Shown here: positions 39,774 to 55,734 of the stretch, piece by piece
Numbering within the stretch: the stretch's first letter is position 1
Layout of the letters: every line of letters starts with the position of its first letter
Source of the DNA: an uncultured Ruminococcus sp.
GTDB taxonomy: Bacteria > Bacillota > Clostridia > Oscillospirales > Ruminococcaceae
Assembly: GCA_947178575.1 (NCBI GenBank)
Contig: CAMWYX010000001.1
Coordinates: forward strand, 1 to 64,000
Direction of reading: 5' to 3'
DNA: 64,000 bases
Notes under the pieces: generated by a model
What the model saw: only the letters and a program-made list of their open reading frames with translations
Told to the model about the DNA's origin: nothing
Databases searched by the model: none
Translations under genes and position numbers: made by a program

Positions 39774-41729
39774 ATGAAGCGAAAAATAATCGGGGCGGCA
39801 GCGGCGTATATGTCGGGATTGTTTTTCGCTTCATTTTTCTGCGGAATTTCAGGCATTATAATGATTTCATGCGTTTTCTTTTCAATGCTGATTCTGCAGA
39901 AAATGGGGAAATTCAGCATTTCCGATATTATTGCAATGTCAGTTATTTTTGTTACGGCGTTTTCGGTTAACCGGCTGTATACTGTCATGTATGTGGATAT
40001 GCTGAGAGGTTACAGCGGATATACCGGCGGTTTCACGGGAAAAATCGTTGATTATGATGTTTATGCCGGCGATTTCGCAGTGTATGTGCTTGACGGCGTG
40101 ATTGATGTCGGTCAGAAAGCAAAAATAATAGTTAAATCAAACGAACTCGATGCCGGATACGGCGATATTCTGACAATTGAAAGCTGTGAATTTGCAAAGA
40201 CAGAAAGCAGTTATCTTTTTGACAGCAAAACGTATAACAGTTCACGCCATATTTTTCTGGAGGCAGTTAAAACGGACGGAATAAGCGTATCACATGGTAA
40301 ATCCGGAAAATTACATCAATGTATTGCGGATTTCCGTGCCGGAATGATAAACCGTCTATGTGTGGCAGTCGGCAGGGAAGCCGGCGGATTTCTTTCGGGA
40401 ATGATGTTCGGCGAAAAACAGTATATCGACAGCGGTACAAAATCGGAACTGTACCGGACAGGAATCGGTCATATTCTGGCGGTATCGGGACTTCATGTAT
40501 CTGCTGTTTCGGCGTTTCTGATGATGATTTTTAAACGTCTTAATATAAACAGATTTATCCGTTTCGGAATTGTAAACGCCGTGATTCTGTTTGTTATTGC
40601 ACTTGCTAATTTTCCTGTATCGGCGATACGTGCGGTAATTATGACTGATATGATATATTCGGCGGAACTTTTCCGTCAGCAGAATGATTCTCTCAATTCG
40701 CTTGCGGTGGCGGCTCTTGCTATATGTATCGCCGACCCTTACGCCTTGTACAGCAGCGGATTTATTCTTTCGCTTTCGGGTACGGCAGGAATAGCCGTTT
40801 TTGCACCATATATGACTGGAAATATTGATTCCGAAAAAATCGGAAAGACTGGAAAAATGTTTCTGAATGCTTTGTTTACATCAATTGCGGTTACTCCGGC
40901 TACGATGTATTATTTCAGCGAAGTTTCAATAATATCTCCGCTCACGAATGTTATTCTTGTTCCGATGTGTATGACGGCGATGTTTTTTGGTGTTCTGTTT
41001 GTGGTTACAGGAGGTATATTTGATGTAATTCTGTACCCTGCGGAATTAATGATAAATACAGTATTGAAAATATCCGATAAAACAGCGGTACTTGGATTTG
41101 CTCATATTTCAAAGATAAGCGGAGCAGTACCGCTGATTTTTATAATTATGGCATTGATAACGGTGTTCATATATCTGTTTTCTGGAAACAGGCGTTCAGT
41201 GCTGAATTTCATAGTGATTTCAGCTGTTATCAGTACAGCATTATTTGCTGTTATGCGTCATGTGTATTCGGAAAAACTTGTTGTTGCGGTTTTTGGCAGA
41301 GATGATGATTATAATTATTCGGCTGTGATTTCGTATCATAATAAAATTATCGTTGCGGATATAAGCGGAAATAATAAATCCGCATCATATGTAAGGAAAT
41401 ATATTGCCGAAAACGGTCTCGGAATAAATTCTCTGATTCTTACCGAATCCGTACATTCGCAGTATTCGTTATACGAAAAAGCACTGAAATTGTCTCCTCC
41501 TGAAAATATATACGCTGTATGCAGTACACGGACGCATAATGAATATTTTGAAACCATTGACGGAAACGAAACTGTATTTGATGCCGGTGATTATATCGTT
41601 AAGATTGAATACGGCTGTATTACTATAGTTTCGGAAACAGATACAATTATTGTTCCGGCAGATTCTCAGCCGTACATGATAAGTCCGGACGGCGGAGAAG
41701 TCAATGCCGAATTGAGAATATACAGATAG
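39774..41729 (+). CDS. comEC: ComEC/Rec2-type competence membrane protein with degenerate beta-lactamase domain
   Basis: This 651-residue protein has N-terminal membrane segments, an OB-like exported region (about 80-170) and the competence domain with GIGHILAVSGLHVSAVSAF. ComEC forms the channel for single-stranded DNA uptake. The C-terminal metallo-beta-lactamase-like domain (about 500-651) has lost its markers. DVGQGD reads VFGRDDD, the DGG position reads DISG, and the HxHxDH motif reads TESVHSQY. It starts six bases after the previous gene with a poor ribosome binding site. It precedes holA, a common Firmicute order. Confidence 0.88.
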   Translation: MKRKIIGAAAAYMSGLFFASFFCGISGIIMISCVFFSMLILQKMGKFSISDIIAMSVIFVTAFSVNRLYTVMYVDMLRGYSGYTGGFTGKIVDYDVYAGDFAVYVLDGVIDVGQKAKIIVKSNELDAGYGDILTIESCEFAKTESSYLFDSKTYNSSRHIFLEAVKTDGISVSHGKSGKLHQCIADFRAGMINRLCVAVGREAGGFLSGMMFGEKQYIDSGTKSELYRTGIGHILAVSGLHVSAVSAFLMMIFKRLNINRFIRFGIVNAVILFVIALANFPVSAIRAVIMTDMIYSAELFRQQNDSLNSLAVAALAICIADPYALYSSGFILSLSGTAGIAVFAPYMTGNIDSEKIGKTGKMFLNALFTSIAVTPATMYYFSEVSIISPLTNVILVPMCMTAMFFGVLFVVTGGIFDVILYPAELMINTVLKISDKTAVLGFAHISKISGAVPLIFIIMALITVFIYLFSGNRRSVLNFIVISAVISTALFAVMRHVYSEKLVVAVFGRDDDYNYSAVISYHNKIIVADISGNNKSASYVRKYIAENGLGINSLILTESVHSQYSLYEKALKLSPPENIYAVCSTRTHNEYFETIDGNETVFDAGDYIVKIEYGCITIVSETDTIIVPADSQPYMISPDGGEVNAELRIYR

Positions 41730-41743
41730 GGCGGAGGTTTTGA

Positions 41744-42832
41744 ATGCCGAAAATAAATTCGGGAGAGCTGACAGCATCTCTTAAAAAAGGTCAGCTCAGC
41801 AGACTATATTATATCTTCGGCGGAGATGTTGCCGGAGTTACAAAAATGACAAGATTGATTATAAATACAGCTGTAGGCGGAAATGAGGAATTTGCCCTTA
41901 CACGCTTTGACGGCAGACGGCTTGATATATCTCAGCTTGCCGATACGGCGGGACAGTTCAACATGATGTCGGATTACAACTGCATATTGATAAACGACTA
42001 CAACTGTGAAAAGCCGTATGAGGATATGCGTGGACGTTCCGCAGATGATGTCACAAAAAAACTTCTTGCCGTACTTAAAGATATACCTCCGCAGACAGTG
42101 ATAATATTCAATGTCACCGGATTTGAAGTAAAAGTCCAGCGTGATTTCCGTTCGGGGCAGAATATAATAAAGGACAAGAATAAAAAATTAGCCGATTTTG
42201 TGGCAAAGAACGGCATATTATGCGAATTTCCCGTAAAGACTTCCGGAGAGCTTTCAAAAATCATCACCGCTGAAGTTTCAGCTCAGGGCGGAAAAATATC
42301 ATTGCAGAATGCCCGTGAACTCGCAGATATGTGCCTTTGTGACGGAGTAATTATCGAAAATGAAATCGCAAAGCTCTGTTCGTATGCAGACGGCAGGGAA
42401 ATAACACGTGAAATGATTCACGAAATGGTTCACGAACAGAATGATACAACCGTATATAATCTTGCGAATGCGGTTGTCTCGCTTAATGCAGATTTGGCAT
42501 TTGAAGCTATAGATGAACTGAATGTGGGAAATGAAAACCGTGTAATTGTTCTGGGGGCGATAACAAATGCGTTTCTTGACCTCTACCGTGCGGCGTGTGC
42601 ATTAAAAGCAGGAGTATCGGCTGAACAGGTTACCGCCGACTTTGAATACAGAGGACGTGCTTTTGCCGTCAGAAACGCTTTCAGGGATTGTTCCGGAATG
42701 AGTATCGAACGGCTCAGAAAGTGTATAATAATACTCCGCAATACGACAATGAGATTAAATTCCACAGCGTCTGACCCTCGTACAGCTATAGAACAGGCAG
42801 TTGTGCAGATGCTCGAAATAAATGACAGGTGA
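41744..42832 (+). CDS. holA: DNA polymerase III subunit delta
   Basis: This 362-residue clamp-loader subunit opens the beta sliding clamp. The sequence is divergent, as is normal for HolA. The YYIFGGDVAG start, the central AAA-like domain and the C-terminal collar helices match. The place after comEC is the usual Firmicute synteny. CGGAGG ribosome binding site. It overlaps an alternative start of the next gene. Confidence 0.9.
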   Translation: MPKINSGELTASLKKGQLSRLYYIFGGDVAGVTKMTRLIINTAVGGNEEFALTRFDGRRLDISQLADTAGQFNMMSDYNCILINDYNCEKPYEDMRGRSADDVTKKLLAVLKDIPPQTVIIFNVTGFEVKVQRDFRSGQNIIKDKNKKLADFVAKNGILCEFPVKTSGELSKIITAEVSAQGGKISLQNARELADMCLCDGVIIENEIAKLCSYADGREITREMIHEMVHEQNDTTVYNLANAVVSLNADLAFEAIDELNVGNENRVIVLGAITNAFLDLYRAACALKAGVSAEQVTADFEYRGRAFAVRNAFRDCSGMSIERLRKCIIILRNTTMRLNSTASDPRTAIEQAVVQMLEINDR

Positions 42833-42836
42833 CAAG

Positions 42837-43436
42837 ATGATAAAGATAAAGGAAGCAGTAATAGTTGAGGGAAAATACGATAAAATAAGACTTTCCGGAA
42901 TTATCGACGGCGTTATAATTGTAACAAACGGGTTCAGGATATTCAAGGATACGGAAAAATTACAGCTGATACGTTATTATGCGGAAAAAACGGGTATAAT
43001 AATACTGACCGATTCGGACAGTGCAGGGAGAAAAATCCGGGGATATATAAAGGGAGCTGTAAAAAACGGAAGTGTAAAGAACGTGCATATTCCCGATATT
43101 TTCGGCAAGGAAAGACGTAAGGAAAAACCGTCCGCCGAGGGAAAGCTTGGAGTTGAGGGAATAGATTCGGATATAATTCTTGAGGCATTTAAAAAAGCCG
43201 GAATAACTGCATCTCAGCGGAATATTCCGCCGGATATAACAAATCTTACAATGTTTGAGACCGGTCTCAGTGGCAGACAGAACAGCTCGGAGCTCAGAAA
43301 ACGGCTTCAGAAAAAACTCGGGCTTCCGTCTCTCATGTCGGCTTCCGCACTTCTTGAAGTTCTCAATACTATGATGACAGCGGAGGAACTTGCGGAATGC
43401 GTACATCAGCTACAGGGGGACGGCAATGATATATAG
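42837..43436 (+). CDS. rnmV: Ribonuclease M5 (Toprim)
   Basis: This 199-residue nuclease matures 5S rRNA precursor together with L18. The Toprim motifs are VEGKYDK near the start and LTDSDSAGRKIR, and the C-terminal domain is complete. An in-frame ATG at 42822 is less likely, because AGGTGA (42826-42831) is five bases before ATG 42837 and the MIKIKEA start matches relatives. It overlaps the next gene by 11 bases. Confidence 0.92.
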   Translation: MIKIKEAVIVEGKYDKIRLSGIIDGVIIVTNGFRIFKDTEKLQLIRYYAEKTGIIILTDSDSAGRKIRGYIKGAVKNGSVKNVHIPDIFGKERRKEKPSAEGKLGVEGIDSDIILEAFKKAGITASQRNIPPDITNLTMFETGLSGRQNSSELRKRLQKKLGLPSLMSASALLEVLNTMMTAEELAECVHQLQGDGNDI

Positions 43437-44808
43437 CAGTCTTGGATTTATATATTTATTTTTTCCGGCATCGCTTATAATCTATTATGCCGTTCCGAGG
43501 AAAGCAAAAGATATTGTGCTTTTTTTAATGAGCTGTGTATTTACCGGACTTATGGGATTGAAAATTCTTGCGTTTACTGCGTTATATATAGCGGTAAATT
43601 ATATTGCTGCACATCTTACATATCGTATGGCGGTGGTTAAGAGGAGACAACTCCGGCTGATACCGTGCAGTATCGGAATATTTTTTGATATTCTTATGAT
43701 TTTTGGTTTCAGGTCGGAATATTTTTCATTTATAACTGCACCTCTTAATCTTCCTGACGGTGTTTTTCCGATTGGAATATCGTTCTTTACTTTATCGGCG
43801 GTGGGATACCTTATGGAAATATACCGTGGAGAAGTAAAGGCGGATATGAATATAGTACGTTTTTCACTGTATCTTATTATGTTTCCGAGGCTTATATTCG
43901 GTTCTTTGATGAGTTACAGCGTGTTTGTATCGGCATTGAGACGACGGCGTATGAATATTATGGAAATAGGCAGAGGGCTTTCACTCTTTGTCAAGGGACT
44001 TGGAAAAAAAGTAATAGCTGCTGATTCTCTTTACGCTCTGTACAGTGCAGTTGTCAGCACAGATACAGGAAATCTTTCATTGGTATCGGCATGGCTTGGT
44101 GTAATATCATATGTACTTTGTCTTTATTTTACGATGTCCGGATTTTCAGATATGAGTACAGGGCTTTGCAGATGTTTCGGATTCAGATTTCCGGGTGGGT
44201 TCAATTATCCGATGTTCAGCGGAAAGATACGTTTTTTTGCGGCAAAATGGCAGGTTCAGGCGGTTCAGTGGTTCAGACGGAATATCACCCGTCCGCTGAC
44301 TGTTCTTATTGATAATCCGAGACTGAACAAGATTATATTTATTTTAGTATGGGCAATAGGCGGATTCTGGTATGGATTTTCAGTCGGAAGCATGATATTC
44401 GGTTTTCTTATGGGAACGGCGATTATAATTGAAAACAGGTTCAGAAATCTGAAATTCATGAAATCCAACGGAATACTTTACACATCTTTTGCTGTCATGC
44501 TTATGTCGGTATTTCTTATGTCGGACGAAATATCAGATGCTTTCCGCTATTTATGGGCAATGGTCGGCGGAAACGGTACAATTGCCGATTCGCTTGCCGC
44601 ATATTTTGCAAGATATTATATAGTAGTGCTTCTGGCAGCCGTGTATGCTTCAACGGATTTGTTCAAGAATATGGTTGTAAGAGTTGAAAACAGCCGGTTC
44701 AGATGGGCAGTTTATGTATTTTCTCCGGCGGTATCGCTTCTTCTTCTGATGATATGTACTGCAATGATGTCATATTCCGGAAGTTCGGGAATACTTCTGT
44801 TGATGTAA
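43426..44808 (+). CDS. MBOAT-family membrane protein without the catalytic histidines
   Basis: This 460-residue multi-pass protein has the AlgI/DltB-type MBOAT organisation: SCVFTGLMGLKIL near the start, FPIGISFFTLSAVGYLMEIYRG, and FNYPMFSG. In active AlgI-like O-acyltransferases the next motif is WHISL and the active-site motif is GLWHG. Here they read WQVQA (Gln276) and GFWYG (Tyr316), so both histidines are lost. GGGGGA before ATG 43426 fixes the start over the longer frame from 43390. The next gene encodes a DHHW-type partner that is degenerate in the same way. Acyl transfer by the known mechanism is unlikely. Confidence 0.82.
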   Translation: MIYSSLGFIYLFFPASLIIYYAVPRKAKDIVLFLMSCVFTGLMGLKILAFTALYIAVNYIAAHLTYRMAVVKRRQLRLIPCSIGIFFDILMIFGFRSEYFSFITAPLNLPDGVFPIGISFFTLSAVGYLMEIYRGEVKADMNIVRFSLYLIMFPRLIFGSLMSYSVFVSALRRRRMNIMEIGRGLSLFVKGLGKKVIAADSLYALYSAVVSTDTGNLSLVSAWLGVISYVLCLYFTMSGFSDMSTGLCRCFGFRFPGGFNYPMFSGKIRFFAAKWQVQAVQWFRRNITRPLTVLIDNPRLNKIIFILVWAIGGFWYGFSVGSMIFGFLMGTAIIIENRFRNLKFMKSNGILYTSFAVMLMSVFLMSDEISDAFRYLWAMVGGNGTIADSLAAYFARYYIVVLLAAVYASTDLFKNMVVRVENSRFRWAVYVFSPAVSLLLLMICTAMMSYSGSSGILLLM

Positions 44809-44821
44809 GTGAGGTAGCAAA

Positions 44822-45904
44822 ATGAAATTATCAAAAAAAATAACCGCCGGAATACTGATAATATTCATAGTGATGATGCCGGTGATTATGATACTGAAAA
44901 AATCTTTCAGGTTTCCGGAAGTCAGTCTGAAAGGTCTTTCCGACGGAAGTTTTGTACATGAATTTGAAGAACTTTTTGCAGACGGATTTTCATGGCGCAG
45001 TATGTGGGTATCGGCAAGTGCAGAGATAAATTCATGCATCGGAGAACCGATAATCAACGGCGTATACATCACGGACAGTAGACTTATTGATACAGGTTCA
45101 GCCGTTCAGTTTGACGCAGAAAAAACCGCCGGTATTGTGAACAGTTTTTCGGAAAAATGCACCGGAGCGGTTTATTTTGCTGCAATTCCTACATCAGCCG
45201 GAATATATCGGGATATTCTTCCGGAATATATGTCCGGAACTACAGAAAAACAGAAAGCCGATATTCTGTATGAAAAACTCAATACCGACATACGAAAGAT
45301 AGACGCATACAGCATACTTAAAATGCTTAGTGACAGTTATATATATTACCGTACCGATACAAAATGGACTTGTTACGGGGCGTATTGCGTTTATCGGACT
45401 GTTGTCCAGAAACTCGGATTCATGCCGGTATCGTATGATAAATATACAATACGTCACATGACTGACGGCTACAGGGGAAATCTTTACAGCAGAACACAGT
45501 ACACAGAATCAAAATCAGACCAGCTTGATATATATGAATATAACGACGGAACAGAAACCACAAGCTGTACTGTATATGACAATCACGGAGGAAAGTATAA
45601 ATGTGAACTCTATAATACAGATGCAGTCGAAACTGATAATATGTATGACCTGTATCTGTACAGCGGACAACCGCTCGTAAAAATAAATACAACAGTGAAC
45701 AATGACCGTCATCTCCTTGTTATAGGTGATGAATTTGTGCTGAATTTTGTACCTTTTCTTACAAAGCATTACAGCGAAATATCTGTGCTTTTCCCTGAAT
45801 ATATGGAAAAGGAAACAGATTATTTTGTTGATACAGACAAATATGAACAGACGCTCATACTTCTTGGCATGGATAAAATGAATATACTGGAGATGATTAA
45901 GTAA
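44822..45904 (+). CDS. DHHW-family (AlgX/SGNH-like) exported protein without catalytic residues
   Basis: This 360-residue protein has an N-terminal membrane anchor (about 8-25) and an exported domain of the DHHW type. That domain normally works with an MBOAT protein to acylate a surface polymer. The name-giving motif TDHHW reads TDTKW (178-182), and the serine motif GDS reads GDE (302-304) in LLVIGDEF. Ser, His and His are therefore all missing while the surrounding framework (NFVPFLTKHYSEI) is kept. The gene is 13 bases after the MBOAT gene with a GTGAGG ribosome binding site. Confidence 0.75.
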   Translation: MKLSKKITAGILIIFIVMMPVIMILKKSFRFPEVSLKGLSDGSFVHEFEELFADGFSWRSMWVSASAEINSCIGEPIINGVYITDSRLIDTGSAVQFDAEKTAGIVNSFSEKCTGAVYFAAIPTSAGIYRDILPEYMSGTTEKQKADILYEKLNTDIRKIDAYSILKMLSDSYIYYRTDTKWTCYGAYCVYRTVVQKLGFMPVSYDKYTIRHMTDGYRGNLYSRTQYTESKSDQLDIYEYNDGTETTSCTVYDNHGGKYKCELYNTDAVETDNMYDLYLYSGQPLVKINTTVNNDRHLLVIGDEFVLNFVPFLTKHYSEISVLFPEYMEKETDYFVDTDKYEQTLILLGMDKMNILEMIK

Positions 45905-45906
45905 TT

Positions 45907-46677
45907 ATGAAAGCTTTGATAACAGGTGCGACATCGGGAATAGGAATGAGTATAGCAAAAAACCTCCGGAAAAGAGGCTGGGAACTGATACTCACCGGCA
46001 GAAATGAGAAAGTTCTGAAGCATATGCAGAAAGTTTTCGGCGGTACGGAAATAATTACCGCTGACCTTTCGGTTAAATCTGATGTGTTCAGGGTGTATGA
46101 TTTCTGTAAAGATAAAAATATTGATATGCTCGTGAATAATGCCGGATACGGAATATTCGGAAGATTTGACGAAACCAATCTCAATGACGAAATAGATATG
46201 ATAAATGTGAATATCACGGCGGTTCACATATTGATGAAATTGTTTCTGCGTGATTTCAGATACCGGAATTACGGAATAATACTCAACGTGGCATCATTGG
46301 CAGGATTTCTGACAGGACCGCTTATGTCGTCATACTATGCATCAAAGAATTATGTTGTACGTCTTTCAATTGCGGTTGCGGAGGAACTCCGGCGTGAAAA
46401 ATCAGATGTTAAGATTACGGTTCTGTGTCCCGGACCTGTCAGCACCAATTTCAACAGCCGTGCAGGTGTAACGTTCAGCGTGAAGCCTTTATCGGCGGAT
46501 TATGTGGCTGATTATGCCGTCAGAAAGGCTCTTTCAGGACAACTTATTGCAGTTCCCGGATTGATGATGAAAGCCGGAGTTGCTCTGTCGGGATTTGTTC
46601 CGCACCGGATTCTGGCAATGCTTGTGTATGGAATCCAGAAACGCAAGGAATCCGCCGACGGTACGGAAAAAATATGA
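45907..46677 (+). CDS. Short-chain dehydrogenase/reductase
   Basis: This 256-residue classical SDR has the cofactor motif TGATSGIG, NNAG, a catalytic Ser in NVASLAG and YxxxK as YYASK. Arg at the second strand (TGRN) hints at NADP preference. The substrate is unknown. The C-terminal hydrophobic stretch suggests membrane association. Two bases after the DHHW-like gene and overlapping the next membrane-protein gene by ATGA, so it probably belongs to the same envelope-related operon. Confidence 0.87.
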   Translation: MKALITGATSGIGMSIAKNLRKRGWELILTGRNEKVLKHMQKVFGGTEIITADLSVKSDVFRVYDFCKDKNIDMLVNNAGYGIFGRFDETNLNDEIDMINVNITAVHILMKLFLRDFRYRNYGIILNVASLAGFLTGPLMSSYYASKNYVVRLSIAVAEELRREKSDVKITVLCPGPVSTNFNSRAGVTFSVKPLSADYVADYAVRKALSGQLIAVPGLMMKAGVALSGFVPHRILAMLVYGIQKRKESADGTEKI

Positions 46678-47219
46678 AAAACATAAGTTATAGGGTTGCT
46701 CTCGGCGGAATAGTATCCGCATTGTGTCTGCTTTGTATGTTTCTCGCCGGAATAATGCCGTTGTTTTATCTTCTTCTTCCGATGGCTGCGGGAGTTTTGC
46801 TGATGATAATAGCGGAGGAAGTAAGTCTCAGCTGGGCTTGGCTGACATACGCATCGGTTAGTCTGCTGTCGCTTTTCATCACGGCTGATAAGGAATCGGC
46901 TCTCATATTTATAATGCTTTTCGGGCATTATCCGATATTACGGATTTATCTCGGCAGACTTAAACCGCACGGACTGCGGAATCTGATAAAAACAGCGGTA
47001 TTCAATTTATGTGCAGTCAGCTTTTTTTATGTGACTACGTTTGTATTCGGAATAGACCAGATGATGGACGATATGGGCGATTACGGAAAATACGGTGCAA
47101 TTGTTTTTCTTATATTTGCAAATGTGATATTCGTGCTGTATGACTTCAATCTTGGTGCGACGTATGTTTTATATATAAAAAAGCTCATGCCACGACTTTT
47201 AAGGAAAAGGCGGCAGTAA
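46674..47219 (+). CDS. Uncharacterised integral membrane protein
   Basis: This 181-residue very hydrophobic protein has about five or six membrane segments and a basic C-terminus (RLLRKRRQ). I do not recognise a family with confidence. The size and helix pattern are reminiscent of small substrate-binding membrane components, but no motif supports that. Coupled to the SDR gene by an ATGA overlap and followed two bases later by the GTPase-nuclease fusion. Confidence 0.7.
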   Translation: MKNISYRVALGGIVSALCLLCMFLAGIMPLFYLLLPMAAGVLLMIIAEEVSLSWAWLTYASVSLLSLFITADKESALIFIMLFGHYPILRIYLGRLKPHGLRNLIKTAVFNLCAVSFFYVTTFVFGIDQMMDDMGDYGKYGAIVFLIFANVIFVLYDFNLGATYVLYIKKLMPRLLRKRRQ

Positions 47220-47221
47220 TC

Positions 47222-49774
47222 ATGAAAAATATAACATTGGGAATTACTGCTCATGTCGATTCCGGAAAAACAACTCTTGCAGAGGCAATGCTGTACGAAT
47301 GCGGTGAAATCCGGAAACTCGGCAGAGTAGACAGCGGAAATTCATTTCTTGATACCGATTCGATAGAGCGTGACAGGGGAATAACCATATTTTCAAGCAG
47401 AGCAGAAATAAACAGCGGAAACACACATATAACATTGCTTGATACTCCTGGTCATGTGGATTTTTCCGCCGAAACCGAAAGAACAATGCAGATTTTAGAT
47501 TATGCTGTTCTCGTAATAAGCGGAACTGACGGAGTTCAGAGCCATACATCAACATTGTGGAAACTTCTGAGAAAATATGAAGTTCCGGTTTTTATATTTG
47601 TGAATAAAATGGATTTGCTCACAGCTGACAGAAATGCAGTTCTTGAACGGCTCAGACAGAAACTTTCGGACAGATGCACCGATTTTTCGGATAATGAGGA
47701 AATATACGAAAATTCAGCGTCATGTGACGAAGAACTCATGGAAATTTATCTTGAACACGGCGGACTGACCGATTCCGAAATTAAAAAAGCCGTTTCGGAA
47801 CGGAGAATCTTCCCGTGTATGTTCGGCTCTGCTCTCAAAATGAACGGTATATCCGAATTTCTTTCTGTTATTGACAGGTTCACAGACGAGCCGGAACGAT
47901 ATGAGAAGTTCGGAGCTAAAGTATATAAAATATCCTATGACAGCAAAGGCACACGTCTTACTCATCTTAAAGTAATGGGCGGAGAACTGAAAGTCCGGAG
48001 CGAAATTAAATATACTGATTCAGACGGCAGGGAAATCACCGGAAAAGTAAGTTCTGTGCGTTTCTGTTCCGGCGGGAAGTTCCGCACCGCCGAATCTGCA
48101 AAGGCAGGGGAAGTCTGTGCGGTTACAGGTCTTGACGGGACATATTCCGGTCAGGGAATCGGCTGTATCAGGAACTCCGACAGAGCAGTTCTCGAACCGG
48201 TAATGACATACTGTATTAATCTTCCGCCTGAAAAGAATGTTTTTGAAGCTCTTAAAGATATGCGGAAGCTCGAAGATACAGAACCACAGCTCCATATTGT
48301 CTGGAATGAGGAACTGAGAAAAATATATGTTCAGCTTATGGGTGCGGTTCAGATTGAAGTATTGTCACGCATAATATCGGAACAATATGGATATGACGTG
48401 ACATTCGGGAGCGGTTCGGCAACGTATAAGGAAACGATTTCTGGAATCGCCGAGGGTGTGGGTCACTATGAACCATTGCGCCACTATGCGGAAGTTCATC
48501 TGATACTTGAACCTCTCCCACGAAACAGCGGACTTGTATTTGATACGTCCGTACCGGAAGACGTTCTTGACCGTAACTGGCAGAGGCTCATACTTACGCA
48601 TTTAGAGGAAAAAACACACAGAGGAGTTCTGACCGGTTCGCCTGTAACCGATATGAAAATAACACTTGTCGCCGGAAAAGCACATCTGAAGCATACGGAG
48701 GGCGGTGATTTCCGTCAGGCAACTTATCGGGCTGTACGTCACGGTCTGAGAAATGCGGAAAGTATACTTCTTGAACCATATTACGAATATGAAATTGAAA
48801 TCCCGTCGGAATATACAGGGCGTGCAATTGCCGATTTACAGCATATGTCGGCGGAATTTGATTCACCCGAAATTGTCGGGGAATCGGCAGTTATCAGGGG
48901 AAATGCTCCTGTTTCGGAACTCAATGACTATCAGTCGGAGATAATCGGCTACACACACGGAAAAGGACGGATTTCGTGCATAAACTGCGGTTATCGGGAA
49001 TGCCACAATTCAGATGAAGTGATAGCTTCCATAGGTTACAACTGTGACAGCGATATTGAAAATACTGCGGATTCGATATTCTGTAGTCACGGAGCAGGGG
49101 TTAATATAAAATGGAATGAAGTATACAGTTATATGCATATTCCGAGCTGTCTCGCTCCGGAGAAAAATAATCCGGAAACCAGAGAACCGTCACGCCGGAA
49201 TAATTCCGGAGAAGTTTCGGAAGAAGAACTGATGGAAATTTTCGAGCGTACATACGGAAAAATCAAAAAAGAACAGAACCCACGCAGAACATTTAAAACC
49301 GTAAAAGAACCGAAAGACTATTCAAAGCCGGTCAGTCTCCCAAAATATGAGGGGGCGGATTATCTTCTGGTTGACGGATATAATATTATATTTGCGTGGG
49401 ACGAACTGAAAAAAATCGCCTCCGAGAATCTTGATTCCGCAAGAGCAGAACTGATAAATATGATGTGCAGTTATCAGGGTTGTACCGGATATGAAATAAT
49501 AGTCGTATTTGATGCGTACAGAGTAAAGGGCAGACACCGTGATGTTGAAAAATATTACAATATCAGCGTGGTATATACAGGCGAATCCGAAACCGCCGAC
49601 AGCTATATTGAACGTGTTACCCATGAACTTTCAAAAACTCATCGTGTGCGTGTTGCCACATCAGACGGACCGGAACAGATGATAATTTTCGGTAACGGTG
49701 CTATGAGAGTTTCGGCATCAGAACTGAAAAAACGTCTTGACGATGCTGACAGGGAAATGAAAAAATATATATGA
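47222..49774 (+). CDS. TetM-like ribosomal-protection GTPase fused to a YacP/Rae1-type NYN nuclease
   Basis: This 850-residue fusion has two parts. Residues 1 to about 640 are an EF-G/TetM-like GTPase with G1 AHVDSGKTT, G2 RGITI, G3 DTPGHVD, G4 NKMD and a TetM-type C-terminus (GRISCINCGYRECHN, FCSHGAGVNIKW). After a charged linker (about 645-705), residues 707-850 are an NYN domain starting ADYLLVDGYNIIFAW. Its acidic positions VDGYN, FDAY, TADSY and TSDGPEQ are retained. Free-standing YacP (Rae1) of Bacillus cuts mRNA in the ribosomal A site, the site TetM-like factors also enter. Tetracycline resistance is not implied. A ribosome-rescue or quality-control role is inference. Confidence 0.9.
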   Translation: MKNITLGITAHVDSGKTTLAEAMLYECGEIRKLGRVDSGNSFLDTDSIERDRGITIFSSRAEINSGNTHITLLDTPGHVDFSAETERTMQILDYAVLVISGTDGVQSHTSTLWKLLRKYEVPVFIFVNKMDLLTADRNAVLERLRQKLSDRCTDFSDNEEIYENSASCDEELMEIYLEHGGLTDSEIKKAVSERRIFPCMFGSALKMNGISEFLSVIDRFTDEPERYEKFGAKVYKISYDSKGTRLTHLKVMGGELKVRSEIKYTDSDGREITGKVSSVRFCSGGKFRTAESAKAGEVCAVTGLDGTYSGQGIGCIRNSDRAVLEPVMTYCINLPPEKNVFEALKDMRKLEDTEPQLHIVWNEELRKIYVQLMGAVQIEVLSRIISEQYGYDVTFGSGSATYKETISGIAEGVGHYEPLRHYAEVHLILEPLPRNSGLVFDTSVPEDVLDRNWQRLILTHLEEKTHRGVLTGSPVTDMKITLVAGKAHLKHTEGGDFRQATYRAVRHGLRNAESILLEPYYEYEIEIPSEYTGRAIADLQHMSAEFDSPEIVGESAVIRGNAPVSELNDYQSEIIGYTHGKGRISCINCGYRECHNSDEVIASIGYNCDSDIENTADSIFCSHGAGVNIKWNEVYSYMHIPSCLAPEKNNPETREPSRRNNSGEVSEEELMEIFERTYGKIKKEQNPRRTFKTVKEPKDYSKPVSLPKYEGADYLLVDGYNIIFAWDELKKIASENLDSARAELINMMCSYQGCTGYEIIVVFDAYRVKGRHRDVEKYYNISVVYTGESETADSYIERVTHELSKTHRVRVATSDGPEQMIIFGNGAMRVSASELKKRLDDADREMKKYI

Positions 49775-49787
49775 TATTTCATGTCTG

Positions 49788-49896
49788 CAACCGGAATATC
49801 GCAGAAAGCAACCGCCGGTTGACAAATTGTAAAGTCCGGTTGATTGAAATACAGCGAAGTTTATGGTAGAATGAGTACAGTAAAAAATTCAACCGG
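49788..49896. promoter_or_regulatory. Cluster of CAACCGG/CCGGTTG half-sites around the HTH-gene promoter
   Basis: Copies are CAACCGG at 49788-49794, the abutting pair CAACCG-CCGGTTG at 49809-49821, CCGGTTG at 49836-49842 (against the -35), and CAACCGG at 49890-49896 over the ribosome binding site. The arrangement suggests an autoregulatory operator for the HTH protein encoded next. Confidence 0.5.
49844..49872 (+). promoter_or_regulatory. Probable promoter of the HTH regulator gene
   Basis: TTGAAA -35 (49844-49849), 17-base spacer, TAGAAT -10 (49867-49872) with an upstream TG (extended -10). The leader to ATG 49908 is short. Confidence 0.62.
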
Positions 49897-49907
49897 AGGT
49901 ACTTTTT

Positions 49908-50408
49908 ATGATACTCGCAGACAAGATTATTGAACTCAGGAAAAAAGCCGGAATGTCTCAGGACGAATTTGCGGAACAGATGAACGTCAGCCGTCAGTCC
50001 GTATCGAAGTGGGAGGGTGCGCAGTCCGTTCCCGACCTCAGTAAGATACTTAAGATGTCGGAAATTTTCGGCGTATCGACCGACTACTTATTAAAGGACG
50101 ATTTTGAGAAAACTTCTCCGGAAGTTTCCGGAATCGTCTCCGACAGCGAACCTCTCCGTCAGGTATCTATGGAGGAAGCCAATCAGTTTCTTGAAGTAAA
50201 CAGACGGTCGGCGTTCAAAACGGCTCTGGGTGTTGCACTCTGTATATTGTCTCCTGTTCCTATTACTGTTTTTTCTGAATTATCGGTCATACTTTCAAAT
50301 ACTTTGGGAACTGTTTTTCTGTTTATTATGGTTGCCGTAGCGGTGGGACTTTTTATTTCGGCAGGTGCGGAAAAAAGCCTTTCGGCTATCTTACAAAAGA
50401 GGGTATAG
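49908..50408 (+). CDS. XRE-family HTH regulator with membrane domain, N-terminal part (frameshifted)
   Basis: This 166-residue product has an N-terminal helix-turn-helix (LRKKAGMSQDEFAEQMNVSR, residues about 10-29) and two hydrophobic segments starting near residue 105. The frame leaves its family pattern after an A6 run (50371-50376) and stops at 50408. In the -1 frame the sequence continues FGYLTKEGIDTAYGVDGML into the next reading frame. The intact protein would have about 320 residues, the length usual for this HTH-membrane family. The fault could be a real mutation, a sequencing error or slippage. CGGAGG ribosome binding site. Confidence 0.8.
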   Translation: MILADKIIELRKKAGMSQDEFAEQMNVSRQSVSKWEGAQSVPDLSKILKMSEIFGVSTDYLLKDDFEKTSPEVSGIVSDSEPLRQVSMEEANQFLEVNRRSAFKTALGVALCILSPVPITVFSELSVILSNTLGTVFLFIMVAVAVGLFISAGAEKSLSAILQKRV

Positions 50409-50431
50409 ACACGGCATACGGCGTTGATGGA

Positions 50432-50872
50432 ATGTTAAAAGAAAAGAAGTCCAGATTTTCGCCTGTTCACACAAAAGATTTAATTATAGGCACTGCAATT
50501 TGTATACTTTCGCCTGTGCCCTTATCTTTAATAGGTGTAATATTTTCTGAAGACGATTTTCTGAACTGTATGGGTGCAGGATTGTTACTTATAATTGTAG
50601 CTGTCGGCATATTTTTAATTGTAAAATCATCTTTGATTAAAAACGGATTTTCAAAAATGCTTGAAGAAGATAAATTTTCACGTGAAAGAAAATTGAAAGA
50701 AAAACAGCATATCGGCGGAATTACCGGAAGTTACTGGCTTATCGTGCTGGCAGGATTTTTTGCATACAGCTTTATAACATCTGACTGGGGAAGAAGCTGG
50801 ATTGCATTTCCGGTTGCCGCACTTCTTACGCCTATAGTGTATCAGATAGAAAAGCATATCAAATCAAAATAA
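50432..50872 (+). CDS. C-terminal membrane part of the same frameshifted HTH protein
   Basis: This 146-residue frame has four hydrophobic segments (AICILSPVPLSLIGVIF, a second near 45-65, then GSYWLIVLAGFFAY and a terminal pair). It repeats the ALCILSPVP-type motif of the upstream part, as full-length relatives do. ATG 50432 lacks a clear ribosome binding site, and the family-like reading continues upstream in this frame to about 50376. It is most likely not an independent gene but the second half of the protein from 49908. Confidence 0.6.
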   Translation: MLKEKKSRFSPVHTKDLIIGTAICILSPVPLSLIGVIFSEDDFLNCMGAGLLLIIVAVGIFLIVKSSLIKNGFSKMLEEDKFSRERKLKEKQHIGGITGSYWLIVLAGFFAYSFITSDWGRSWIAFPVAALLTPIVYQIEKHIKSK

Positions 50873-50893
50873 TTAATTTTTCGGTTATATAAG

Positions 50894-50929
50894 AAAAGCC
50901 CTGATTCTGTCGAAAGAATCAGGGCTTTT
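50894..50929. terminator. Bidirectional terminator between the HTH gene and the oad operon
   Basis: A perfect 15-bp stem (50894-50908 with 50915-50929, core GCCCTGATTCT) with a 6-base loop has A and T runs on either side. It serves the two convergent transcription units. Confidence 0.9.
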
Positions 50930-50949
50930 GATATGTTTATCAGAATTTA

Positions 50950-52167
50950 TTATCCGAAAACTGCAAGGAGGAATCCGGCAGCAATTGCAGAGCCGATAAC
51001 TCCGGCAACGTTAGGACCCATTGCGTGCATAAGCAGGAAGTTAGACGGATTTGCTTTCTGTCCCTCAATCTGCGAAACTCGTGCCGCCATAGGCACGGCA
51101 GATACTCCGGCTGAACCGATAAGCGGATTTATCTTTCCGCCCGTGAGTGCATACATAAGCTTGCCTACAAGAAGTCCGCCCACTGTTGAGAAGCAGAATG
51201 CTGTAAGTCCGAGAACGATTATGAAAAGAGTCTGCAAATTCAAAAAGCTGTCGGCGGCTGTTGTTGCACCGACTGAAATTCCGAGGAATACAGTTACAAT
51301 ATTCATGAGAGCATTCTGAACCGTATCGGAAAGACGTTCAGTAACTCCGCATTCCCTCCAGAGATTGCCGAGCATGAGACAGCCGATAAGCGGAGCTGTC
51401 GACGGAAGGAGAAGTATTACAAACATTGCGACTATAATCGGGAAAAGAATTTTTTCTGTTTTGGAAACAACTCTGTTCTGTTCCATCTTGACTTTGCGTT
51501 CTTTTTCAGTTGTGAGAAGTCGCATAAGAGGCGGCTGAATCATCGGGATAAGAGCCATATAAGAATAGGCGGCGATTGCTATAGGTCCGAGAAGTTCCGG
51601 AGCAAGTTTTGTTGTAAGGAAAATAGCTGTAGGACCGTCCGCACCGCCGATAATTCCTATAGCGGCAGCCTGATTTCCGGTGAATCCGAGGAGTACAGCC
51701 CCGAAAAATGCGAGAAATACGCCCATCTGTGCAGCAGCTCCGAGGAGGAGGCTTTTAGGGTTTGCAATAAGAGGTCCGAAGTCCGTCATTGCACCTACAC
51801 CCATGAATATCAGTGACGGATAAATTCCGGCTTTTACTCCTATGTACAGAATATCGAGCAGTCCGCCCTCTGACATTATCCGCCCGTAGCTGTGATAATA
51901 TTCGCTGTTATGGTCGAGAAAATCCGACCACAACTGGGGGTGATACAAAGCGTCGGTTGATTCCGGCGTGAAGTATGAGAGATTGACAAGCAGACAGCCG
52001 AATGCTATTCCGACAAGGAGAAGGGGTTCAAACTTTTTCTTGATTCCGAGATAGAGGAGAACGCAGGAAACGGCAATCATGATAAGATTTTTCCAGCCTC
52101 CGTCAACGAGGAAGCTGTGAAATCCCGAACCTTCCCACAAGTCTTTGAGGGTCTGAAGAATATCCAT
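50950..52167 (-). CDS. oadB: Na+-translocating decarboxylase beta subunit (OadB)
   Basis: This 405-residue multi-pass membrane subunit catalyses decarboxylation of carboxybiotin coupled to Na+ export. The conserved [10 protein letters not shown] loop with the essential Asp and the [18 protein letters not shown] stretch are present. Family-typical length. It is the last gene of the minus-strand operon oadA, gamma-like, biotin carrier, oadB. GGAGGG ribosome binding site 13 bases after the biotin-carrier gene. A shared terminator follows. Confidence 0.95.
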
Positions 52168-52179
52168 TTTCCGCCCTCC

Positions 52180-52575
52180 TTATGCTATGATAACAAGCGG
52201 TGAACCGGTATCTACAACTGCTCCCTTGCTTGTGACAATCTGTGCAACAGTTCCGTCTTTCGGGGAGACGATTTCGTTTTCCATTTTCATGGCTTCGAGA
52301 ATAACAAGAATCTGACCTGATTTCACGGTGTCGCCCTGATTTACTTCAATCCGGAGAATATTTCCGGGCATAGGTGCGGAAACCGTTTCACCGGCAGCAA
52401 GATTAACCGGAGCAGGAGCTGGTGCAGGTGCGGAGACGACAGGTGCAGGAGTTTCCGGAACGGCAGTCTGTGCCGGAGCAGGTGCAAGAGCCTCATACTC
52501 GTCAAGAAGTATTGCCTTTCCCTTTTCGACTTCTACTTCATACGTTTTTCCGTTGAGAGTAACTTTATATTTCAT
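52180..52575 (-). CDS. Biotin carrier subunit of the Na+-pumping decarboxylase
   Basis: This 131-residue protein has a short N-terminal segment, an Ala/Pro-rich flexible linker (about 30-60) and a C-terminal biotinyl domain with ILEAMKMENE, whose lysine carries biotin. It shuttles CO2 from the carboxyltransferase (OadA) to the membrane subunit (OadB). In many oxaloacetate decarboxylases this domain is fused to the alpha subunit. Here it is separate, as in clostridial and methylmalonyl-CoA-type systems. AAGGAGG ribosome binding site. Confidence 0.93.
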   Translation of the reverse strand: MKYKVTLNGKTYEVEVEKGKAILLDEYEALAPAPAQTAVPETPAPVVSAPAPAPAPVNLAAGETVSAPMPGNILRIEVNQGDTVKSGQILVILEAMKMENEIVSPKDGTVAQIVTSKGAVVDTGSPLVIIA

Positions 52576-52577
52576 AA

Positions 52578-52964
52578 TTATTTGACCTCCTTGATTGAAA
52601 TAAACCGCAGTTCGTTGAGCGGAGTCTGCATTTTATCGGCAACGATAGCCATAATCATAGCGGCTTCCTTATCCGGTACGTTATAGAGTTTGACGTGACC
52701 GGCAGAACCCGGAGCAGCAGGGGCAGGGGGTTCGGGAACGGGTTCGGGCTTTTTTTCGACGATTTTTTCATCAACTTTAGCGGCAGCGGCTTTTGATTCC
52801 TTGCTTTTGAATATCGAGCCTGTTATATACAGAACGCACATCAGGAGAACAAGACCGAAAAATACAACGCAGTATCCGAAAATTGCCGTTACTGCGGCAT
52901 CGCCTATGCCGATTTTTGTACCGCTTTCCGCCGACTGAACAGCTGCGAGAAGATACATATTCAT
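52578..52964 (-). CDS. Na+-pump decarboxylase gamma (OadG-like) subunit
   Basis: This 128-residue protein has one membrane segment (about 28-50), a Lys/Glu then Pro/Ala-rich cytoplasmic stretch and a small conserved C-terminal part. This fits the OadG family, which links alpha and beta subunits and helps assembly. It lies between oadA and the biotin carrier gene, with an AAGGGGG ribosome binding site. The Pro-rich tail is longer than in minimal OadG proteins. Confidence 0.82.
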   Translation of the reverse strand: MNMYLLAAVQSAESGTKIGIGDAAVTAIFGYCVVFFGLVLLMCVLYITGSIFKSKESKAAAAKVDEKIVEKKPEPVPEPPAPAAPGSAGHVKLYNVPDKEAAMIMAIVADKMQTPLNELRFISIKEVK

Positions 52965-52976
52965 ACAGTTGCCCCC

Positions 52977-54374
52977 TTACATTTCCTCGATTGTGTAAAC
53001 GGCTTCGTTTTCCTCCTGTGCCTTGCGGTTCTGGAGGAATTTAATTGTCTGGTCAGGATAGCAGATATAACTCATTACATCTTCTTCGCATCGGCAGAGG
53101 TCGCCGAGGGCTTCTTTTGCGATTCTGAAATCTTCGCCGGTACGTTTTTCATCTTCCGCACGGCAGTCAACGGGCATATCGTCTCCGAGAACTTTTTTGG
53201 AAAGGTCGGGGTCTATCGGTGCAGGAGCGATTCCGTATTCGCCTTTTATGTAGTTCTTGACTTCTTTTGAAATATTTTTATAGCGTTCGCCGACGAGTAC
53301 ATTTGTTACAGCCTGATTTCCCACCATCTGCGAAAGCGGAGTTACAAGAGGCGGATAGCCGAGGTCTGCACGTACTTTCGGGATTTCGGCGAGTGCGGCA
53401 TCGAATTTGTCCATAGCGTGCATATCGGTGAGGTTTGCTATCATATTCGAGAGCATACCGCCGGGGACTTTGTACACAAGAGCCTGAGCATCTGTGGCAA
53501 GGCTTTTAGGATTGAGCTGACCGTTATCGATATACTTCTGCTTGATGGGCTTGAAAAAGTCGTTCACTTTGTTTATGATGTCCTCGTCAAGACCGCAGTC
53601 GATTCCGTACTGCTGGAGAGCGTAGAACATAGTTTCCGTGGAGGGCTGAGAAGTTCCGCCGGAGAACGCAGAGCAGGCAGTATCAATTACATCGATTCCG
53701 GATTCGATTGCTTTCAGAATGGTCATGTATGCCATTCCGGTGGTGCAGTGAGTGTGGAGAATAAGCGTCATATCGCCGATAGCGTCCTTTATTCCTTTGA
53801 TAAGGTGTTCGGCTTCATACGGTGACATAGTACCTGCCATATCTTTCAGGCAGATTGTATCGAATCCCATTTTTTTGAGTTCACGGCACATTTCGATATA
53901 CTTTTCAACGGTATGGACAGGGCTTTGAGTGTAGGAGATACAGCCGGAAGCGACCGTCCTTTTTTTTGCGAATTTCTTTACCGAACTGAGAGCAGTCTCG
54001 ATATTTCTAAAATCGTTGAGAGCGTCGAAGATACGGATAACATCGATTCCGTTTTTGATTGAAAGTTCGATGAATTTTTCAACGACATCATCGTGATAGT
54101 GCTTGTAGCCGAGAAGATTCTGACCTCTGAGGAGCATCTGCAATCTTGTATTCGGGAGATTTTTCCGGAGATTGCGTAATCTTTCCCACGGGTCTTCATT
54201 AAGATAACGCAGGCATGAGTCAAATGTTGCTCCGCCCCAGCACTCGATTGAATAATATCCTGCCTTGTCCATATCGGCGAGTATTTCTTCATAATCACTG
54301 TATGGCAGACGGGTTGCCATTAAAGACTGATTGGCATCACGCAGGACTGTTTCTGTAATCTGTACTTTTTTCAT
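52977..54374 (-). CDS. oadA: Oxaloacetate decarboxylase alpha / pyruvate carboxylase subunit B-type carboxyltransferase
   Basis: This 465-residue cytoplasmic carboxyltransferase moves the carboxyl group of oxaloacetate to biotin. The core starts ITETVLRDANQSLMATR, with CLKDMAG and LHTHCTTG metal-site motifs, followed by the C-terminal PYC_OADA-type domain. The biotinyl domain is not fused and is encoded downstream. First gene of the operon, GGAGG ribosome binding site, promoter at 54508-54536. In a succinate- or acetate-forming fermenter it would couple oxaloacetate decarboxylation to a sodium gradient. Confidence 0.94.
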   Translation of the reverse strand: MKKVQITETVLRDANQSLMATRLPYSDYEEILADMDKAGYYSIECWGGATFDSCLRYLNEDPWERLRNLRKNLPNTRLQMLLRGQNLLGYKHYHDDVVEKFIELSIKNGIDVIRIFDALNDFRNIETALSSVKKFAKKRTVASGCISYTQSPVHTVEKYIEMCRELKKMGFDTICLKDMAGTMSPYEAEHLIKGIKDAIGDMTLILHTHCTTGMAYMTILKAIESGIDVIDTACSAFSGGTSQPSTETMFYALQQYGIDCGLDEDIINKVNDFFKPIKQKYIDNGQLNPKSLATDAQALVYKVPGGMLSNMIANLTDMHAMDKFDAALAEIPKVRADLGYPPLVTPLSQMVGNQAVTNVLVGERYKNISKEVKNYIKGEYGIAPAPIDPDLSKKVLGDDMPVDCRAEDEKRTGEDFRIAKEALGDLCRCEEDVMSYICYPDQTIKFLQNRKAQEENEAVYTIEEM

Positions 54375-54394
54375 GTATTATTCCTCCTTGTAAA

Positions 54395-54470
54395 GCAGAA
54401 TATATTTCCGGATATTCTGCCGAATGTTGCATATTCAGAATTATTCAAATGATTCTGAACAGATATTTGA
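54395..54470 (-). promoter_or_regulatory. Structured leader of the oad operon with alternative hairpins
   Basis: GCAGAATAT (54395-54403) and ATATTCTGC (54412-54420) form a 9-bp stem next to the oadA ribosome binding site. TTCAGAAT (54434-54441) and ATTCTGAA (54452-54459) form a second stem. TTCAAAT (54444-54450) and ATTTGAA (54464-54470) form a third that cannot coexist with the second except as a pseudoknot. The CAGAAT/ATTCTG word recurs and could also be protein-binding. The rest of the 351-base intergenic region holds only the two divergent promoters. Confidence 0.45.
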
Positions 54471-54507
54471 ATTAACTGCACAAAGTCAGATAAATCATAC
54501 ACAGAAT

Positions 54508-54536
54508 ATTATAGCACATTGCAAAATAAATTTCCA
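54508..54536 (-). promoter_or_regulatory. Probable promoter of the oad operon
   Basis: On the minus strand: TGGAAA -35 (54531-54536), 17-base spacer, TATAAT -10 (54508-54513) preceded by TGC (extended -10). It gives a leader of about 130 bases. Confidence 0.55.
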
Positions 54537-54614
54537 GTGTTTTTACTGATTTTTTATTTTAATTATATATATCCGTGTTTTAATACGTTTTCTGACGAAT
54601 TTTAAGTTTTTTTC

Positions 54615-54643
54615 TTGACATTTGGAATATTATGTATTATAAT
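54615..54643 (+). promoter_or_regulatory. Consensus promoter of the VanY-like gene
   Basis: TTGACA (54615-54620), 17-base spacer, TATAAT (54638-54643), both perfect. About 75 bases of leader to ATG 54726 with an AGAGGA ribosome binding site. Confidence 0.82.
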
Positions 54644-54725
54644 AAAAGATATACATAGAAATAAAATGAAACCTGTGCCTGAATACACACTGAACAGGCT
54701 TTAAGAACAAAACGAGAGGAATAAA

Positions 54726-55652
54726 ATGAGAAAAAAACATATACGCTGGGGAAAGCTGATTAGCGCAATGTTTGGTGTGTCTTGTGTTATTTTCTTTGCT
54801 GACGGATTTCGCCGTCTTGTTTCAAGGGACAGAACTTCCGAAAAAATAACCGAAATCGGAACTTTTCTTCATACCGGAGAAAGTCCGGACGGGAAAAATG
54901 AAAAAATAAATAAAATTAATTCGGCAGGTTCAGGATATAAAACAGAGATACTCACATCGGACAAGCTTTCTCAGGGCTATCTTGCCCTTTCCAATGCAGT
55001 GAATCCTCCGTCGGCAGTTTCATTGCAATACTTTGTCAATCTGTATGACAATAAAAACGAGTTCTATGATGTAATGGATAACACCGCCATACTTAACAGG
55101 GAAGCGGCATTTGCTCTTAACCGTCTGATGGCAGATTATACGGCTGCAACATCACTTACGAATTTTATCGTGTGCGGAACTACCGGAACATATACCGCCA
55201 TGGATTGGGCAATTCCAAGAAGCTGTCCCGATTCTTCGGCAGGAAATTCCGTCGATTTGGCAATAAAAAATAACGGCGAAATAATAGAATATGACGGTCT
55301 CGACAGCGAAAGCTGGATTATCCGGAACTGTCACCATTACGGATATGTCGTCCGCTATCCCGAGGGCAAGGAGGATATAACCGGTGTTGAATATGCTCCG
55401 TGGCATCTGACATATGTCGGACAACCCCACGCTTCAGCAATGAAAGAATTTGATATGTGTCTCGAAGAATATGTTTCGGCTATCGGCAGACTCAATAATT
55501 CACAGTTTGTATATGATGTCGGGATAGATAAGTATGAAGTCTATTATGTGCCGACTTTCGGTGATTCTACAGAAATAAAAGTTCCCGAAAACAGGGACTA
55601 TAATGTATCCGGCGACAATTACGGCGGATTCATAATAACAGCAAAAAAATAA
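54726..55652 (+). CDS. VanY-like (M15B) exported protein with lost catalytic residues
   Basis: This 308-residue protein has an N-terminal membrane anchor (about 10-27), a linker and a domain aligning with VanY D,D-carboxypeptidases, best seen in YGYVVRYPEGKEDITG and PWHLTYVG. The zinc motif SxHxxGxAxD reads SxxxDSSAGNSVD, with Ser170 in place of the first His, while Asp177 remains. The general-base Glu before PWH is Ala224, and His227 remains. Peptidase activity by the known mechanism is therefore unlikely. A peptidoglycan-binding or regulatory role is inference. It is next to a DacF-like protein with the same kind of loss. Confidence 0.75.
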   Translation: MRKKHIRWGKLISAMFGVSCVIFFADGFRRLVSRDRTSEKITEIGTFLHTGESPDGKNEKINKINSAGSGYKTEILTSDKLSQGYLALSNAVNPPSAVSLQYFVNLYDNKNEFYDVMDNTAILNREAAFALNRLMADYTAATSLTNFIVCGTTGTYTAMDWAIPRSCPDSSAGNSVDLAIKNNGEIIEYDGLDSESWIIRNCHHYGYVVRYPEGKEDITGVEYAPWHLTYVGQPHASAMKEFDMCLEEYVSAIGRLNNSQFVYDVGIDKYEVYYVPTFGDSTEIKVPENRDYNVSGDNYGGFIITAKK

Positions 55653-55688
55653 AAACGGTTCGGAATGCTGTATTCTGAGCCGGTTTTT
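55651..55688 (+). terminator. Intrinsic terminator after the VanY-like gene
   Basis: A long stem (55651-55666 with 55672-55688) with a single bulge and a T-run. The left arm overlaps the stop codon of the VanY-like gene. Confidence 0.75.
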
Positions 55689-55734
55689 CATATTATAAGC
55701 CTTTTCTGCATAAAATATATGGGGTGATATTTTT

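Follow-up and report, generated by a model that had tools for sequence, protein, structure and literature searches.

The window analyzed here (64,000 nucleotides from an uncultured Ruminococcus sp., positions 1 to 64,000 of contig CAMWYX010000001.1, forward strand) contains one gene that joins an EF-G/Tet-type translational GTPase to a NYN nuclease domain, and on balance, by a little better than an even chance, this gene encodes a Rae1-type ribosome-dependent mRNA endonuclease that has its own translational GTPase and stands in for free Rae1 in most of the genomes that bear it. Sequence comparisons suggest a Rae1 in which a GTPase that would bring the nuclease to ribosomes has taken the place of the docking tail. 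The architecture has been on record since 2015, when ten Clostridiales species were described in which Tet proteins had acquired a YacP-like NYN domain (Atkinson 2015, PMC4342817, as given in excerpted passages of that paper); within the literature searched, the placement of the GTPase in a non-Tet clade, the loss of the Rae1 tail and the linker helix are new. No functional study of a GTPase-NYN fusion was found in the open-access literature searched, outside of which the main Rae1 papers (Leroy 2017, Condon 2018) lie.

One reading frame carries the GTPase, a linker and the nuclease domain

The first-pass annotation of this DNA had described a single frame with GTPase motifs, a linker and a complete NYN domain, and Pfam analysis of the 850-residue product confirmed this description. 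GTP_EFTU matched residues 3-220 (8e-52), EFG_IV residues 402-512 (4e-18) and EFG_C residues 516-597 (5e-18), while NYN_YacP matched residues 715-848 (E 7e-49; 166.5 bits against a cut-off of 24.6); EFG_C and NYN_YacP, the two families by which that annotation proposed to check its assignment, were thus both found. The features of the gene and of the gene directly upstream are collected in Table 1.

Table 1. Features of the fusion gene and its upstream neighbor (positions in the window)
Feature	Positions	Strand	Basis or remark
181-aa protein directly upstream	46674..47219	+	hydrophobic by eye, no Pfam match
Fusion ORF	47222..49774	+	ATG start, 850 aa, intact
G domain, residues 1-220	47222..47881	+	P-loop AHVDSGKTT, DTPGH and NKMD present
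Domains II and III, residues 221-400	47882..48421	+	Pfam EF-G_D2 and EFG_III below cut-off
Domain IV, residues 401-512	48422..48757	+	Pfam; highest conservation of all segments
Domain IV tip GKAHLKHTEGGDFRQ, residues 485-499	48674..48718	+	unlike TetM/O/W/B(P) and EF-G
Domain V, residues 513-590	48758..48991	+	Pfam EFG_C, predicted structure
Cys-containing C-terminal extension (C594 ... FCxxG), residues 591-642	48992..49147	+	alignment
Variable linker, residues 643-712	49148..49357	+	mostly low model confidence
Linker helix SEEELMEIFERTYGK, residues 666-680	49217..49261	+	fusions only
NYN_YacP/Rae1 nuclease domain, residues 713-850	49358..49771	+	D718, D764, D793, E797, D815

An AlphaFold2 model of the fusion, built on a 70-row alignment and replacing an earlier structure model (pLDDT 73.6), had a mean pLDDT of 84.2 and a pTM of 0.63; pLDDT fell below 50 at residues 649-666 and 678-705, with a helix at residues 667-678 between them. 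Structural comparison of the GTPase part bore out a five-domain EF-G fold, with a large rmsd in many rows. In the 70-row alignment, domain IV was the top segment (mean pairwise identity 0.77, with 40 of 112 columns invariant), and identity was 0.60 in the G domain, 0.63 in the NYN domain, 0.30 in the linker and 0.71 in the linker helix. When residues 600-850 were compared with sequence clusters, at least 7999 matched, so the fusion is more than chance; the 120 matches listed were the same fusion or pieces of it.

The nuclease domain has lost the Rae1 tail

The NYN domain aligned with B. subtilis Rae1 (5mq8/5mq9) over 136 residues with an E-value of about 1e-29. The acidic residues D718, D764, D793, D815 and E797, which we take to be the catalytic acids of a PIN-like active site, did not vary in any of the 24 fused and 22 stand-alone rows, and the acidic residues that the first-pass annotation had pointed out were therefore all kept on alignment (46/46 rows). 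The domains differ in what follows the last active-site Asp. Stand-alone Rae1s have 63-68 residues after it (20 of 20 measured, one skipped) and end in a terminal L[ED]x[IMLFV]R[RKL] motif (LExxRR type) in 21 of 21 cases, versus 0 of 98 fusions, the window's included, by a pattern that was drawn up from the stand-alone tails after inspection, 12 of the 21 being from one family (f38). Fusions have 30-79 residues after this Asp, fewer than 50 in 57 of 98 and 35 after D815 in the window's protein, and the tail motif is missing also from the 41 fusions with at least 50 residues there; three fused rows were unmeasurable, and two phage-collection rows were left out of the count.

At the same place B. 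subtilis Rae1 has FEKLRR, one letter off the strict pattern, and the second R is R166 by alignment to 5mq9. Rae1 R166P is one of the efp suppressors that were assigned to loss of function on the ground that knock-outs behave alike (PMC6613710, excerpted passages), and R166P is presumed to be a loss-of-function allele. From the comparison of tails, we infer that the C-terminal tail would help Rae1 to reach the ribosome and would have been given up once the GTPase took that job. The loss of the tail with the fusion was probably one evolutionary event, and if the fusion arose once, the correlation weighs as a single case.

In the NYN tree, the fused domains and two stand-alone NYNs (from G209 and G225) formed a 100/99 clade. 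These two stand-alone proteins (L072 and L074, respectively) keep the tail motif, and both genomes have unfused GTPases; the two may be pre-fusion relatives. AU tests on the origin of the fusion gave p values of 0.42 (NYN), 0.29 (GTPase) and 0.38 (unfused as one clade), by which a single origin is neither shown nor rejected.

The linker holds a second feature of the fusions. A strict pattern for ELMxIFExTYG was matched by 73 of 103 fusions but by none of 23 unfused and none of 22 stand-alone proteins, an absence that is partly trivial because neither of the latter groups has a linker. The 30 fusions missing the strict pattern mostly have a recognizable variant (e.g., EEIDxIxNxTYYANQGKK), Agathobacter least so. 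The conservation of one short helix within a linker that is otherwise free points to a docking element.

The fusion probably stands in for free Rae1 in most genomes that bear it

A NYN_YacP match was present in 192 of 293 genomes of the class sample. The 150 NYN matches listed (149 genomes) lay in frames of at least 700 aa (85), of fewer than 250 aa (59) or in between (6), and the 43 further NYN genomes comprised 13 with a long GTPase frame and 30 without a strong GTPase, the latter being taken as the stand-alone type. With domains IV-V and the extension as the query, and 140 bits or more counted as a strong match, the GTPase was found in 123 of the 293 genomes and was joined to, or broken beside, a NYN in 103 of them; the recurrence of the architecture in Clostridia, supposed in the first-pass annotation, is thereby supported. 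Long frames (at least 780 aa) held 97 of the 123 matches and all 97 genomes were NYN-positive, a count that is partly circular because the frame is long by virtue of the NYN in it. In six genomes (G044, G062, G172, G185, G190 and G235), the frames of the GTPase and the NYN were short or broken and lay on the same contig. G190 (L036) has two frames in place of one, a frame of 285 aa for the G domain and another of 618 aa for everything else including the NYN; this is a broken gene, a frameshift or an assembly error.

The other 20 GTPase genomes were unfused, 13 with a stand-alone NYN and 7 without a NYN match, the GTPase being broken in one of these (G203). An intact-looking unfused GTPase occurred without any NYN_YacP match in six genomes (G025, G028, G054, G068, G178 and G288), and the GTPase may thus be of use to a cell that lacks a nuclease partner from this family. 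Among the 59 genomes with a listed stand-alone-size frame, a fused and a stand-alone form were seen together only in G284, and four genomes of the class sample had two NYN matches in all. The window's own genome, whose assembly is 91% complete, contained no second PF05991 (NYN_YacP) match, as would be the case if stand-alone yacP were missing from it, which had been raised as a point to check. In most genomes bearing the fusion, the fusion thus more probably stands in for free Rae1.

A NYN was present in 71 of 148 genomes sampled from the window's family, in 68 of them in a frame of at least 842 aa and in three in shorter frames (G298, G301 and G373); the other 77 of 148 had no NYN match, which makes the function dispensable. 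Going by frame size, a genome of this family has either the fusion or no NYN at all, the latter in about half of the cases. The phylum-wide sample was NYN-positive in 229 of 398 genomes.

It is unlikely, although of the competing accounts this one fares best, that the two halves do separate jobs on one chain, the NYN then being plain Rae1 and the GTPase an EF-G-like factor or accessory translocase. Such a division would be consistent with the 13 genomes in which unfused GTPase and stand-alone NYN are separate genes and with the six that have the unfused GTPase and no NYN match; it is also consistent with H488, which stands in the EF-G His column in 46 of 47 fused and unfused rows (S in L. salivarius), the EF-G His of that column serving translocation. 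Against such a division, fusion is the rule among genomes with the GTPase (103 of 123), and a coupling of the two halves is suggested by the linker helix and by the missing Rae1 tail.

The GTPase belongs to a clade apart from the Tet proteins

The GTPase parts of 24 fused and 23 unfused relatives were aligned with TetM, TetO, TetW, a Tet mosaic, TetB(P) and EF-G. Fused and unfused GTPases together formed one clade apart from the Tet clade, with support of 100 and 98 in a quick tree and of 100/98 for each of the two clades in a careful tree, the rooting of which is weak because five rows were dropped and one long EF-G branch was the outgroup. The Tet clade (TetM/O/W/B(P)) excludes the window's GTPase. 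Fused rows formed a 98/95 clade in the careful tree, with the unfused L. salivarius protein nested within. By sequence, then, the GTPase of the fusion is not a Tet protein and belongs to a sister clade of Tet; the label "TetM-like" given to it at first is accordingly loose. Neither the NCBIfam model tet_protect (419.8 bits versus a cut-off of 775) nor the EF-G equivalog (285.3 versus 659.4) was reached.

The domain IV tip reads HxKHTxGGDFR in the clade, versus YYSPVSTPADFR in TetM/O/W and FFSPASTPADFR in TetB(P), and the window's protein has HLKHTEGGDFR instead of the Tet-type loop YSPVSTPADFR. H491, T492, G495, D496 and F497 were constant in 47 of 47 fused and unfused rows, and K490 in 45 of 47. 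The Cys-containing extension (C594 in 46 of 47, FCxxG) is shared across the clade, whether or not a NYN is attached, and none of the 5 Tet and 2 EF-G rows in the comparison has it.

Excerpted passages of Atkinson 2015 (PMC4342817) state that Tet-NYN proteins may be a new resistance mechanism, and a protein of this kind, protecting against tetracycline or another A-site drug with the RNase domain adding a mechanism, would explain why TetO and TetM are the closest solved structures by sequence, why 9 of the 10 source-named homologues among the 120 matches listed are called TetM/TetW/TetO/TetS, and why two named fusions lie on records labeled plasmid. We regard it as improbable, however: the tet_protect score, the separate clade and the tip all speak against it. 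Tet domain IV loops dislodge tetracycline (PMC4342817, same passages), and all 24 fused and all 23 unfused rows have another sequence in place of this drug-displacing tip. Moreover, the stop codon of the upstream 181-aa gene lies 2 nt before the fusion ATG, which leaves no space for a leader between them, and no leader or attenuator was matched by Rfam in 40000-56000, although Rfam is blind to a Tet-type leader peptide. The tree and the tip thus support the earlier suggestion that the protein is something other than a resistance factor.

A role in rRNA or tRNA maturation or in ribosome assembly, in which the NYN would process stable RNA and the GTPase would act like BipA, is given similarly little weight. 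Maturation of rRNA and tRNA has been put forward as the function of the NYN family (a proposal cited in PMC4342817, excerpted passages), but B. subtilis Rae1 is described as translation-dependent, with the A site as its proposed place of action (PMC10100781 and PMC6613710, likewise in excerpt).

Genomic neighborhood, replicons and phage records

The same-strand run up to the fusion consists of a multi-pass protein (no Pfam match; MBOAT-like by eye), DHHW, a short-chain dehydrogenase and the 181-aa protein, and may be an operon. Given their 2-nt spacing, the 181-aa gene and the fusion are probably on the same transcript. Downstream, at 50950-54374 on the minus strand, lie genes of a decarboxylase complex: Pfam identified OAD beta, and inspection by eye added a small subunit, an alpha-like subunit and a biotin-carrier-like protein. 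Five or six related loci have similar decarboxylase genes close to the fusion. Across 81 loci (flanks up to 8 kb, many shorter), no neighbor family that could mark a conserved partner gene occurred in more than 12.

Two named fusions (L086 and L093) are on replicons labeled plasmid, non-mobilizable, in Monoglobus pectinilyticus and Agathobacter rectalis; NCBI names the first "translation factor GTPase family protein" and the second TetM/TetW/TetO/TetS. The Monoglobus replicon is 518 kb, with a recombinase gene near the fusion, and that of A. rectalis is 252 kb, with a BrnT/CopG-type toxin-antitoxin pair upstream of the fusion. Ligilactobacillus salivarius megaplasmids, including that of UCC118 (hits H53-H85), carry a relative of the GTPase that is mostly annotated as tetracycline resistance. 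The single L. salivarius copy examined (L087) is unfused, lies inside the fused branch and adjoins an ISL3 transposase; it is possibly a copy that lost its NYN.

The whole fusion was also present in two faecal phage-collection records, MT835563 (L084) and MT835514 (L085), both unverified "Bacteriophage sp." The 5 of 21 larger ORFs scanned in MT835514 include AddB, FeoB, a tRNA synthetase and a radical SAM protein, and because of these genes the record was read as bacterial contamination and phage carriage by it was rejected. Of the 5 of 17 larger ORFs scanned in MT835563, three had no match and the other two gave a peptidoglycan-binding/endolysin-like protein and an HTH-acetyltransferase. The fusion was not found on viral contigs in two single-sequence scans, which detect close relatives only. 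A defense or abortive nuclease set off by phage-disturbed translation, as the patchy presence in the family might suggest, is highly improbable, since the sole PADLOC match is weak (LeoA over the GTPase part, 18.4 bits) and no neighbor family recurs widely.

A proposed sequence of events on the ribosome

Under the favored account of a ribosome-dependent mRNA endonuclease, the GTP-bound fusion would bind ribosomes whose A site is free, docking at the factor-binding site, and the constant tip of domain IV would test the decoding center. GTP hydrolysis would then withdraw domain IV while the tether holds the NYN nearby, and the NYN would cut the A-site mRNA. The cut mRNA would be degraded, and the ribosome on truncated mRNA would be handed to the usual rescue factors. 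Genes for SmpB and an RqcH-type (NFACT) protein are present in the genome; for tmRNA, nine weak matches were obtained in the 91%-complete assembly, none over the cut-off, and six of the nine loci, as well as the SmpB locus, showed tRNAs only.

Domain IV of EF-G/TetM-type factors occupies the decoding site. Because EF-G and TetM put domain IV there, domain IV and the NYN could not act in the A site together, and with one A site for both they must act in turn, although the order of events given above is a guess. Sequential action is favored; the alternative is cutting on a neighboring ribosome. Delivery in one step, by contrast, meets a steric problem in that domain IV sits where Rae1 is thought to cut. 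The first-pass annotation had the fusion deliver its nuclease to stalled or drug-bound ribosomes; such delivery may be envisaged, and nothing in the analysis points to drug-bound ribosomes. Tentatively, and with some doubt, a more specific form of the scheme may be put forward: having taken over the ribosome docking of the tail, the GTPase would make the protein a GTP-gated A-site mRNase in which the tip reads a stalled decoding center, cleavage is permitted by GTP hydrolysis, and up to that point the linker helix keeps the nuclease docked or restrained.

If the account is true, a GTPase cycle controls on-ribosome mRNA cleavage in a large part of Clostridia, and the question of what brings Rae1 to the ribosome becomes directly testable through an exchange of tail and GTPase. 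The common tetracycline-resistance label, carried by nearly all of the named homologues among the matches listed, is called into question, and such labels could inflate resistance surveys of gut metagenomes.

Comparison with known systems

The Tet-NYN proteins of Atkinson 2015 (PMC4342817, excerpted passages) have the same domain order and are also from Clostridiales; compared by domain order only, they differ in being called Tet, whereas the window-type GTPase lies outside the Tet clade. TetM, TetO, TetW and TetB(P) share the GTPase domain order and the DFR of the tip with the fusion, at about 29-33% identity, but have neither the HxKHTxGG tip, the Cys extension nor a NYN. B. subtilis Rae1/YacP (5mq8/5mq9) has the NYN domain and the active-site acids in common with the fusion; Rae1 stands alone and has an LExxRR-type tail, whereas the NYN of the fusion sits behind a GTPase and is tailless. 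The unfused GTPases of the clade, from Clostridium-like genomes, L. salivarius megaplasmids and Paenibacillus cellulosilyticus, have the tip and the Cys extension of the fusion, and identity is 42-48% when the GTPase is compared and 45-55% when domains IV-V are; unlike the fusion, they are proteins of 624-724 aa that lack the linker-helix pattern and the NYN.
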